36,558 bases of DNA, from NCBI GenBank assembly GCA_018224385.1, contig JAGTVB010000344.1, forward strand, positions 1 through 36,558. The letters run 5' to 3'. The notes beneath the pieces are model-generated. The model was not told the DNA's origin. It was given only the letters and a program-made list of their open reading frames with translations, and searched no databases. This stretch comes from Gammaproteobacteria bacterium. Lineage in GTDB: Bacteria > Pseudomonadota > Gammaproteobacteria > HK1. This document shows, piece by piece, positions 4,200 through 34,539 of this stretch; within the stretch, counting starts at the first letter, position 1, and each line of letters starts with the position of its first letter. The translations under genes were made by a program, and so were the position numbers.

Positions 4200-4330
4200 C
4201 ACTTGAACCGGTTGCAGAACATGTTGAAGCACCGGCACAAAATGGCTGGACGCCGAGGCGAAACCCCGCGATGCCACGCACAGTAGTTTTATTTTTGGTC
4301 ATGGCCGAATTTTCTAAGGCAGCTTCTTAA
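4200..4330 (-). repeat. Possible degenerate copy of the MITE-like element
   Basis: The end next to glyA, read on the minus strand from about 4330, is AAGAAGCTGCCTTAGAAAAT. It resembles the terminus of the clear copy at 14894-15042 (AAGAAGCTTTTTTAAAAATG). The other end, near the stop codon of the HDAC-like gene, is not clearly matched. The location between two genes is typical of the family. The remaining intergenic bases contain no ORF. The glyA ribosome site GGAGAA follows the element directly. Confidence 0.35.
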
Positions 4331-8009: not shown

Positions 8010-8224
8010 TTCTGAAGCAGTCTCAAAGATATCGCAAGCGCCGGAGTCGCAAGGCGCACGGCAACGAGTACCCGGCGAGCATGAGGGTTACTCGCCCCGT
8101 CCCTGGGACGCACCCCTGTGTGGGCCCACTTGCCGCTGCTCAAAATGGCTCCTGGCCATGTTGTGCGTAAACGCCACGCAACGCGCGTTATGGCGAGCGC
8201 CGTAGTTTTAAAACGGCTTCTCAA
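8010..8224 (-). repeat. MITE-like interspersed repeat, copy between ribC and ribB
   Basis: A ~215-base non-coding element. Its left end GAAGCAGTCTCAAAGATATC (from 8014) and the reverse complement of its right end GAAGCCGTTTTAAAACTACG (from 8220) form imperfect terminal inverted repeats. They extend inward through a GGCG(C/A) block. On the minus strand it reads GCCATAACGCGCGTTGCG, then GTGCGCCTTGC after the variable centre. The plus-strand copy at 14894 has GCCATAGCTGCGTTGCGCGG and GTGCGCCTTGCTCTGCCGG in the same order. The short ORFs predicted across it have no family likeness. Confidence 0.7.
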
Positions 8225-11899: not shown

Positions 11900-12020
11900 T
11901 CCTTAGGCCTCACCCTTGCAAGGCCGGCTTGCAGCCCTTCAAAATCGCGTCCCCACCTCCTCTCGAACGCCACACAAAGCCGCTATGACAAGCGCCGTCC
12001 TCCTTAGACAGCTTCCGAAA
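11900..12020 (-). repeat. Probable MITE-like repeat copy between thiL and pgpA
   Basis: Read on the minus strand from about 12016 it gives GAAGCTGTCTAAGGAGG, then GCGCTTGTCATAGCGGC. This matches the end and first conserved block of other copies (GCGCTTGCCATAGCTGC at 14917). The far end, near 11900, is eroded. It fills most of the 235-base gap between thiL and pgpA. The small ORF that can be read through this gap has no family likeness and is rejected as a gene. Confidence 0.5.
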
Positions 12021-13562: not shown

Positions 13563-14897
13563 ATGAAAAAGGAAGTAAGCCCTTACAAACCTCTCCATGT
13601 TGAGGCAAAGAGCAATTATCGTAAAGGCACCAAGGAACGCCATTCTGTTGCGCAACCCAGCAAGGCCCTTCGAATCGAACAATTGCTGCTGAGGCGGTTG
13701 CTTGCCTCCCTAGGTCATCCACCTCTCGTGGTGACCCTTTGGAATGGCGAAGAGGTCTACCGACCGACGGTGCAACCGGTTGCCAGCGTCGCCATTCACG
13801 ACCGACGCACGCTATGGAAGCTCCTTGCCTCACCGGAACTCGCATTCGGAGACGGCTACGTCGATGGCAGCATCGCTTTGGAGGGCGATCTGGTCGAGCT
13901 TAATGCGGCAATCACTCGATCGCGCCTTCTTAGCACGGGATCCCGTTTGCTTGCCTTGGAGCGTAAACTCAACCGCTGGGTGGCACGCCCTCGCCGCAAC
14001 ACCCTTCGCGGATCGCGAAAAAACATCCACCATCATTACGACATCGGCAACGATTTCTATCGGCTCTGGCTCGATGAGGACATGATCTATACCTGTGCTT
14101 ACTTCCCGACTTACGCTGCAACGCTGGAACAGGCGCAGAGCGCGAAGATGGAGCACGTGTGCAGAAAGCTTCGGCTCTCCCCTGGCCAAACGGTGGTTGA
14201 GGCAGGCTGCGGTTGGGGAGGACTCGCCCGATATATGGCAAAGAGATACGGCGTAACCGTCAAGGCGTTCAATATTTCGCACGAGCAGATCACCTATGCA
14301 CGCGAACAGGCGAAGGCAAAAGGTCTATCTGGACGAGTCGAATTCATTGAGGATGACTACCGCAACATCAATGGCAAATACGATGTCGTGGTATCGGTGG
14401 GAATGCTGGAGCACGTCGGGGCCGATCATTACTCGGAACTTGGAAAAATTCTCCATCGTTGCCTGAAGCCACAAGGGCTGGGCCTCATCCATAGCATAGG
14501 CCGAGATCGCGCCAATCACATCAGCCCATGGATCGAGAGGCGTATTTTCCCCGGTAGCTATCCGCCTTCTTTGCGAGAGATGATGGATATCTTCGAGCCA
14601 AATCAATTTTCGGTTCTCGACGTGGAGAACCTGCGGCTTCATTACGCGAAAACACTGCAACATTGGCTCGATCGCTTTGAGCGAGCCGAGGATAAGATGA
14701 CTGGTCGCTATGATGAGCGCTTCGTACGTACTTGGCGGCTTTACCTCGCGGGATCGATTGCCGCGTTTCTAACCGGCTCACTGCAGCTGTTTCAGGTTTT
14801 ATTTACTCATTCCGGCAACAACCGCATCCCGTGGACTCGCGCCCACATTTACACTGGCAGTGAACAGGCGCATGCAGCGAACGAAGTGGTCTCTTAG
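13563..14897 (+). CDS. cfa: Cyclopropane-fatty-acyl-phospholipid synthase
   Basis: Methylenates the double bonds of membrane phospholipid acyl chains using S-adenosylmethionine, usually in late growth or under acid stress. 444 aa. The N-terminal lipid-binding part (to ~150) has PELAFGDGYVDGSIALEGDL. The catalytic domain has HHHYDIGNDFYRLWLDEDM (157-174), YTCAYF and the SAM-binding motif VVEAGCGWGGLARYMA (211-226). SVGMLEHVG and the C-terminal RTWRLYLAGS are also typical. ATG 13563 is the family-consistent start. The N-terminal ~30 residues are basic and poorly conserved. The TAG stop (14895-14897) lies inside the terminal inverted repeat of the adjacent MITE-like element. Confidence 0.96.
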   Translation: MKKEVSPYKPLHVEAKSNYRKGTKERHSVAQPSKALRIEQLLLRRLLASLGHPPLVVTLWNGEEVYRPTVQPVASVAIHDRRTLWKLLASPELAFGDGYVDGSIALEGDLVELNAAITRSRLLSTGSRLLALERKLNRWVARPRRNTLRGSRKNIHHHYDIGNDFYRLWLDEDMIYTCAYFPTYAATLEQAQSAKMEHVCRKLRLSPGQTVVEAGCGWGGLARYMAKRYGVTVKAFNISHEQITYAREQAKAKGLSGRVEFIEDDYRNINGKYDVVVSVGMLEHVGADHYSELGKILHRCLKPQGLGLIHSIGRDRANHISPWIERRIFPGSYPPSLREMMDIFEPNQFSVLDVENLRLHYAKTLQHWLDRFERAEDKMTGRYDERFVRTWRLYLAGSIAAFLTGSLQLFQVLFTHSGNNRIPWTRAHIYTGSEQAHAANEVVS

Positions 14898-15042
14898 AAG
14901 CTATTTTAAAAATTGCTGCGCTTGCCATAGCTGCGTTGCGCGGCGGCTCAGAATCCTCATGTACTCCCATGTACACTGCGGTTCTTCGCCACCGTGCGCC
15001 TTGCTCTGCCGGCGCTCGCGACATTTTTAAAAAAGCTTCTTA
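14894..15042 (+). repeat. MITE-like interspersed repeat, best-preserved copy
   Basis: About 149 bases, non-coding. The left end TTAGAAGCTATTTTAAAAAT and the reverse complement of the right end TAAGAAGCTTTTTTAAAAAT (from about 15041) are nearly identical terminal inverted repeats. Weaker pairing continues inward (GCGCTTGCCATAGC against GCGAGCGCCGGCAGAGC). The whole could therefore fold into a long hairpin. The inner signatures GCCATAGCTGCGTTGCGCGG and GTGCGCCTTGCTCTGCCGG are shared with the copy at 34387. The left end contains the cfa stop codon. Confidence 0.8.
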
Positions 15043-15270
15043 GAGGGTGTCTTAAAATCGGTGCGAGCGCAGGGAGACGCACGCGCACGATCGCGAGACA
15101 AAATCGTCCGCAACGATTTTGAACAGCCGCAGGCTGGCTCCGAAAGACCGAGCCCCAGGGATAGGGCGAGTCAGCCGGCGTGTAAGGGGGTACAAGGATT
15201 TCGAGCCAGCGCGCAACGCCGCTAGGGCAAAGCACGGAAATTCTTAACAACAGTTTCTTAGCCCATAGTC
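15043..15270 (-). repeat. Second, adjacent MITE-like element between cfa and ligA
   Basis: About 225 bases directly after the previous copy. Its ends (GGTGTCTTAAAATCGGTGCG from 15046, and on the minus strand GAAACTGTTGTTAAGAATTT from about 15263) form imperfect inverted repeats of the family type. On the minus strand it contains TAGCGGCGTTGCGCGCTGGC, equivalent to the first conserved block of other copies. The centre holds a perfect 8-bp hairpin, AAAATCGT with loop CCGCA, at 15100-15120. It lies 60 bases beyond the ligA stop, so the pair fills the space between two convergent genes. Confidence 0.65.
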
Positions 15271-15329
15271 TCTGCTCGCCTTCACCGCAGCGCTCCACAT
15301 CAGGGTAGTCTGCGACGTTTAATTACTCT

Positions 15330-18180
<2,851 letters not shown>

Positions 18181-30883: not shown

Positions 30884-30990
30884 TAAGAAGCGGTAAAAAT
30901 CGTCTCAAGCGCCGGCGCTGTAGACGCTCCCCAACCCGCCATGCCTTGGTTGGCACACGCCGCCAGCATTCCGTAGAATACCCTGCAAAG
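30884..30990 (-). repeat. Possible one-ended remnant of the MITE-like element before psd
   Basis: Plus-strand TAAGAAGCGGTAAAAATCGT (from about 30887), followed by CTCAAGCGCCGGCGCT, matches the right terminus of the copy at 14894-15042 read on its minus strand (TAAGAAGCTTTTTTAAAAAT, then GTCGCGAGCGCCGGC). The other terminus, close to the psd start, is not recognisable. The rest of the 261-base sirtuin-psd gap shows no supported gene. Confidence 0.4.
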
Positions 30991-34386: not shown

Positions 34387-34539
34387 GAATGCCGTTCTAT
34401 AAATTACTGAGCTTGCCATAGCGGTGGTGTGCGACGGCTCGCCATCCTTGTGGGTACTCCCAGGTGCGCTCCGCTTGCTCACCGCCGTGCGCCTTGCTCT
34501 GCCCCCGCTCTGGAGATTCTGTCGAGCGGCTTCTCAAGG
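34387..34539 (+). repeat. MITE-like interspersed repeat inside the nuo operon
   Basis: About 153 bases, non-coding. The left end AATGCCGTTCTATAAATTAC and the reverse complement of the right end GAAGCCGCTCGACAGAATCT are weak terminal inverted repeats. Inside are GCTTGCCATAGCGG, ACGGCTCGCCATCC, a TACTCCCA segment and CCGTGCGCCTTGCTCTGCC. The same blocks occur in the same order in the copy at 14894. The right end has CGGCTTCTCAAGG, exactly as in the copy at 8010-8224. It abuts the nuoM stop codon. Confidence 0.75.

Follow-up and report, generated by a model that had tools for sequence, protein, structure and literature searches.

Repeats of the REP/BIME type are palindromes of 20-40 bp, tagged with GTAG or CGTC and linked to RAYT transposases. 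The R0 and R2 MITEs of Pseudomonas fluorescens are intergenic inverted repeats with hundreds of copies and a bias towards convergent genes, and they are thought to be moved by an IS with the same ends (PMC2718517). The QMITE1 and QMITE2 families of Coxiella are also bacterial MITEs, with about 50 copies that often overlap gene ends; no orthologues of QMITE1 were found in other genomes (PMC5896051). The IS1031 group of full transposons is exemplified by ISLrh, an element of 857 bp with ends GAACCTGTCTAGTATCT, a TNA target and a 3-bp repeat (PMC12016507).

The DNA described here (the window, a stretch of 36,558 nucleotides from a 3.81-Mb gammaproteobacterial draft genome in 390 contigs) carries two adjoining elements, E1 and E2, of 143 and 215 bp. 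Like R0 and R2, their family consists of intergenic inverted repeats in high copy number with some excess between convergent genes, but R0 and R2 are 89 and 110 bp long and have ends identical to those of a resident IS. QMITE1 and QMITE2 are alike in kind and differ in having other lengths and direct repeats of 2-3 and 7-11 nt. The IS1031 group shares with the window family ends starting GAA/GAG..TGT, a TNA target and a 3-bp duplication; unlike those IS, E1 and E2 are miniature and lack a transposase. The length (~143/215 bp) and the DDE-type target duplications do not fit REP/BIME repeats. The joint explanation proposed below, in which we have considerable confidence, is that E1 and E2 are IS1031-type MITEs moved in trans and that they belong to a wider superfamily with a selected core and changed ends.

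Two copies of one element between cfa and ligA

The gene cfa ends at 14897 and ligA lies on the minus strand at 15330-17411 (Pfam). The gap between them has the layout TTA-E1-TTA-E2-TTA, in which a target duplication is common to both elements:

14894..14896, no strand: TTA target duplication, left copy of E1 (from the sequence; 14895-14896 supply the TA of the cfa stop TAG)
14897..15039, plus strand: E1, short-form MITE, 143 bp, ends GAAGCTATTTTAAAA / GAAGCTTTTTTAAAA
14945..14990, plus strand: conserved core hairpin of E1, GGCTCAGAATCCTCATGTAC...GTACACTGCGGTTCTTCGCC (coordinates counted from the alignment)
14960-14964 / 14971-14975, plus strand: innermost stem of the E1 core
15040..15042, no strand: TTA, right copy for E1 and left copy for E2
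15043..15257, minus strand: E2, long-form copy of E1's family, 215 bp, inverted relative to E1
15098..15172, minus strand: extra internal segment of the long form, ~75 bp, holding the AAAATCGT/ACGATTTT hairpin (from the alignment; boundaries approximate)
15258..15260, no strand: TTA, right target-duplication copy of E2

Much of this arrangement had been anticipated in an earlier note on the window. An inverted-repeat element does lie where the note placed it, with 23-bp arms that are 91% complementary; the 149 bases given for it agree exactly with E1 plus two 3-bp duplications (14894-15042); a second element adjoins it, E2 following E1's duplication without a gap; and the perfect 8-bp hairpin reported in that second element is AAAATCGT/ACGATTTT at about 15100-15120. 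The view that two different repeats stand side by side did not survive alignment: on the minus strand, E2 is the same element as E1 with ~75 bp inserted in its middle. Compared with each other, E1 and E2 are 83% complementary over 36-bp arms and 71% over 55-bp arms. Folded as DNA, E1 has an energy 4 sd lower than shuffled sequences (0 of 200 shuffles were as low), and for the stretch of E1 and E2, folded as RNA, the difference from its shuffles reaches 10 sd in the same direction.

The cfa stop codon had been placed inside the first repeat; TAG at 14895-14897 straddles the duplication (TA) and the first base of E1 (G). The stop survived because E1 starts with G, so that TTA|G still reads TAG. 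Joining the flanks over a single TTA gives ...TCT TAG CCC, an identical cfa stop, and the insertions therefore left the protein unchanged. Stop codons coincide with four copies (L020, L021, L026 and the window at 14895-14897), and at all four insertion was silent because the TNA duplication either is a stop or makes one with the element's first G. The cfa-ligA neighbourhood is not conserved (ligA was near cfa in none of the 109 cfa loci examined), and joining element flanks revealed no clear empty site among the loci compared.

Copies, target duplications and candidate transposases

Further copies in the window had been listed near 8010, 11900 and 34387, with remnants near 4200 and 30884. Two of these are clear members of the family and a third is a probable one:

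8014..8220, minus strand: older long-form copy, 207 bp
34388..34533, plus strand: older short-form copy, 146 bp
4205..4300, minus strand: probable remnant, marginal (local E 0.0075), with a TIR-like end and then TTA at 4312-4326

The other two were rejected as family members after model searches: near 11900 blastn support is weak and the covariance model gives none, and the remnant near 30884 is unsupported. Across the genome, copies fall into two recurring length classes (~143 and ~215 bp) bounded by the same ends. That the family is spread through the genome, as the earlier note proposed, was borne out by a genome-wide search: queries with E1 and with E2 each match at least 40 places, and a consensus query gives 292 first-look candidate places. 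Contig ends hold many of the copies, which is expected because repeats break assemblies. The density of one element per 5-6 kb read from the window is too high. Model R1, which was built from 23 copies of this genome, has 7 matches at E<0.01 in a regularly spaced sample of 20 contigs (145.8 kb), or ~1 per 20 kb, which extrapolates to roughly 180 copies in the genome (Poisson 95% about 75-375); the window, with four clear copies of which two are adjacent, is somewhat above the genome average.

At L017 (G000:C180, about 2045-2280) a copy lies near the end of an older copy, and its flanks, once joined, can be aligned to the greater part of an element, possibly a nested insertion. The start of the long-form insert, CTCGCCyCrTCCyTGrGGCTCGCyCCTTCGGrGC (34 bp), is found again in a core-bearing element from a different family, G044 (L164, about 1550-1584 of the reverse complement), where it scores 38 while shuffles reach 29 at most; because of this recurrence the long form may be old.

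E1 and E2 have the usual properties of MITEs: they are short, lack a transposase, bear terminal inverted repeats and occur in many copies. Exact 3-bp duplications flank 24 of the 33 copies with both ends measured, a count in which some ends were first placed by a score that included the duplication, while in most TIRs 10-14 of the 14 bases agree, which fixes the ends independently. All the duplications are TNA (TTA 10, TAA 8, TCA 4, TGA 2). The base before them is C in 18/24 and the base after them G in 15/24, so that the usual context is C-TNA-G. A second element|TTA|element junction occurs at C197 (L030), where shuffles lead one to expect 0. The ends, GAAGCTGTTTTAAAA, are similar and not identical to GAACCTGTCTAGTATCT of ISLrh and to GAACCTGTCTTGAAAAAC. 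Judged from sequence, GAAGCTGTTTTAAAA-like ends with TNA duplications are the signature of transposition of the IS1031 group of the IS5 family.

The full-length transposon with the same ends that the earlier note advised looking for was not found in the fragmented draft genome: there is no PF13340 match, and none of the six PF01609 loci has such ends, in an assembly of 390 contigs from which IS copies may be missing. Since no matching IS was seen in this draft, a helper transposase is what we infer. A comparable IS5-family element (NCBIfam IS5_3; DUF4096) is present in another genome, G151. It measures about 845 bp, has reading frames for PF13340 and PF01609 and is flanked by TNA, and its ends, GAACCTGTCTTGAAAAAC, are similar to those of the window elements. 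An identical pair of IS and element within one genome was sought in sets of 14 and 22 other genomes, and these showed similar end types only. On the G151 chromosome one PF01609 transposase gene (462 aa) is also present in about 17 copies of equal score, beside several other IS types. Mobilisation in trans, the first of the note's two suggestions, is nonetheless well supported by the copy number, the TNA duplications and the near absence of the family from 16 genomes of the same taxonomic family, in each of which blastn gives no more than one weak match.

A transposase supplied in trans would have recognised GAAGCTGTTTTAAAA-like repeats and inserted the elements at C-TNA-G, duplicating TNA. The element has G as its first base and C as its last, so both junctions of any new insertion again read C-TNA-G, and the duplication made by one copy can itself serve as the exact landing site of a second. 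The E1/E2 pair would have arisen through insertion into such a remade target. Remaking of the target would simply explain both the side-by-side copies and the sparing of stop codons.

A conserved core and changing ends

An IS1031-type MITE alone would be a routine new member, as bacterial MITEs are well known. The novelty appears to lie in a superfamily that can be recognised by its interior and whose ends are of several transposase types. No earlier description of it was found in the open-licence literature, a body that leaves out most subscription journals. Model R1 matches 82 of 274 Gammaproteobacteria (GTDB) genomes, in most cases over its full length (spans of 137-146 nt), and model R2, built from 43 diverse members, matches 132 of 399 Pseudomonadota genomes, other classes included. 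One R2-positive family is probably Enterobacteriaceae, because its pbpG region matches that of E. coli at 80%. A sequence-only HMM from own-genome copies, used to exclude pure hairpin effects, finds 42/49 class loci and 18/20 further loci at E<=1e-5; its best E on shuffled loci is 0.0076.

The best-conserved part of the 43-member alignment is the core, GCGTTG...GCTC.AAAT[GC]CTCAT[GT]TAC-loop-GTA[AC]ACT[CG]CG[CG]TTT..CG. Its 20 pairs are standard in 89.9% of cases, a share that drops to 34-51% once the columns are shifted by 1-3; the covariation score is 0.578 (0.179 when shuffled), and double-change cells number 223, compared with 71 after shuffling. The unpaired bulges TCA and ACT[CG]CG are kept, with mismatched or bulged positions more than 90% conserved. 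Mean identity is 68% for cores and 48% for ends, and the core exceeds the ends in 86% of 903 pairs. Target duplications differ with the ends of the core-bearing elements: TGA, TCA or TAA beside GAGGTTGTGAAAAAACC, TTAA or CTAG beside CAGGCTGTTGAAAAA, TTAA beside GGACACCTCTATAAA and CTAG beside GAGGCTGTCCGAAAA. Transposons with similar ends are of three types, IS5_3 (TNA), IS5_4 (TTAA/TAG) and IS1182 (CTAG). The ends CTAG-GAGTCTGTCGGACT and TTAA-GGGAACCTCTAAAA of IS1182 and IS5_4 elements in G151 resemble those of core-bearing elements elsewhere, as do the AGGGAACCTCTGATCAAT ends in G137; these IS are full transposons, unlike the short core-bearing elements. The window family would then be a local amplification of a wider superfamily of ~140-bp hairpin elements in which natural selection has probably kept the core structure, while the terminal repeats may have changed to suit different resident IS5- and IS1182-type transposases.

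The same distribution might be read as recent horizontal spread of one element, without an old lineage whose ends change, and its patchiness, together with the near absence from the window's own family, fits such spread. Recent spread should leave near-identity, which is not seen: cores are separated by numerous paired changes, and the ends have different terminal repeats altogether and different TSD classes, so we regard this as improbable. A related doubt concerns the covariation. Long imperfect palindromes are a known substrate for arm-to-arm template-switch correction, and all members are such palindromes; homogenisation of their arms by template switching could mimic part of the core covariation and would make the core a shared relic only. 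Homogenisation would erase the specific mismatches and bulges that the core keeps at more than 90%, and the core sequence is conserved across families while the ends diverge; as the whole explanation it is accordingly rather hard to credit.

The positions of the elements were compared with those of genes called with a home-made codon score. None of the 36 checked copies lies wholly within a predicted gene, and the median distance is 62 bp to gene 3' ends and 189 bp to 5' ends. Of 26 classified element gaps, 9 are convergent, a modest excess over 15 of 118 background gaps; 12 are codirectional and 5 divergent, and orientation relative to genes is unbiased (5/12 codirectional gaps). The earlier note's second suggestion, that the repeats were shaped into terminators, draws on the place of E1 and E2 between convergent cfa and ligA and on their strong hairpins. 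Neither an intrinsic-terminator-like site (a GC stem followed by a T run) nor a promoter-like site occurs in 14700-15450, however, and with the distribution over gaps, the lack of orientation preference and the clear signature of transposition, a main role as bidirectional terminators between convergent genes was rejected as very improbable. The main rival is use of the core as RNA: a hairpin at mRNA 3' ends would protect or destabilise transcripts, and the repeats would be domesticated 3'-UTR elements. The unpaired bulges conserved beside covarying stems, the proximity to gene 3' ends, the convergent excess and the reported regulation of mRNA by ERIC in Yersinia (PMC2267715) all speak for it; yet an RNA role sits poorly with the unbiased orientation, and the 3' bias is also expected if insertions upstream of genes are purged. 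We therefore think it unlikely, while taking it seriously. Given the lack of orientation bias, the core would most likely serve, as folded DNA, to move or maintain the element itself, and any influence on nearby transcripts would be secondary.

No Rfam family exceeded its gathering threshold for the window elements. There is a weak likeness to the Xanthomonas sRNA sX9 at superfamily elements, in the window at 14959-15032 (E 0.14) and at L234:312-352 (E 0.98), and sX9 may derive from such a repeat.

Relation to enterobacterial repeats and to other MITEs

A repeat with the core is present in E. coli:

L384:137-235 (NZ_CP031609.1): core-bearing repeat in the hemE-nfi gap

It is found by model R2 (E 1.4e-14 in a 3-kb search) and by the sequence-only HMM (4e-8), and its 58-bp core occurs at a median of 5 places per genome. 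This repeat may be the known boxC family. Only the core and the inner arms match the superfamily; the terminal repeats do not.

The enterobacterial 127-bp repeat ERIC (IRU) resembles the superfamily in being about 130 bp long and forming one long hairpin, and it has the central TCANTTAC...GTAANCTCC in register. The covariance models find each other's elements, a result that shape may drive. Model R2 aligns with one E. coli ERIC over its full length, and at seven of the eight ERIC loci its match falls on the element (scores of 6.2-14.4 bits, with E 0.0035-0.66 in 3 kb). The top match of the ERIC model R3 coincides with many superfamily elements, boundaries included (best 6.8e-15), although with 37 pairs this model may favour any hairpin of similar length. 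ERIC differs in its ends, and sequence-only HMMs of the superfamily and of ERIC gave no significant match in either direction. Because of this failure and because R3 may reward hairpin shape, kinship with ERIC is suggestive only, and ERIC was set aside as a proven member even though the models match in register. At L239:23-152 there is a match to the ERIC model (E 8e-5) outside that locus's superfamily element, possibly a second hairpin repeat.

A broader proposal, to which we are drawn without quite being persuaded, is that an ancient, Pseudomonadota-wide superfamily of ~140-bp hairpins is defined by its selected interior, has exchanged its ends for at least three transposase specificities (IS1031, IS5_4 and IS1182), and includes the core-bearing E. 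coli repeats and perhaps ERIC. If this is true, the function of the interior outlives any one transposase, and the superfamily offers a route for testing the origin of repeats such as ERIC. MITEs are usually viewed as transposase ends around disposable filler. The superfamily is the reverse of such ordinary MITEs: its ends are less conserved than its core, and what would be filler is the conserved part, with covarying stems.
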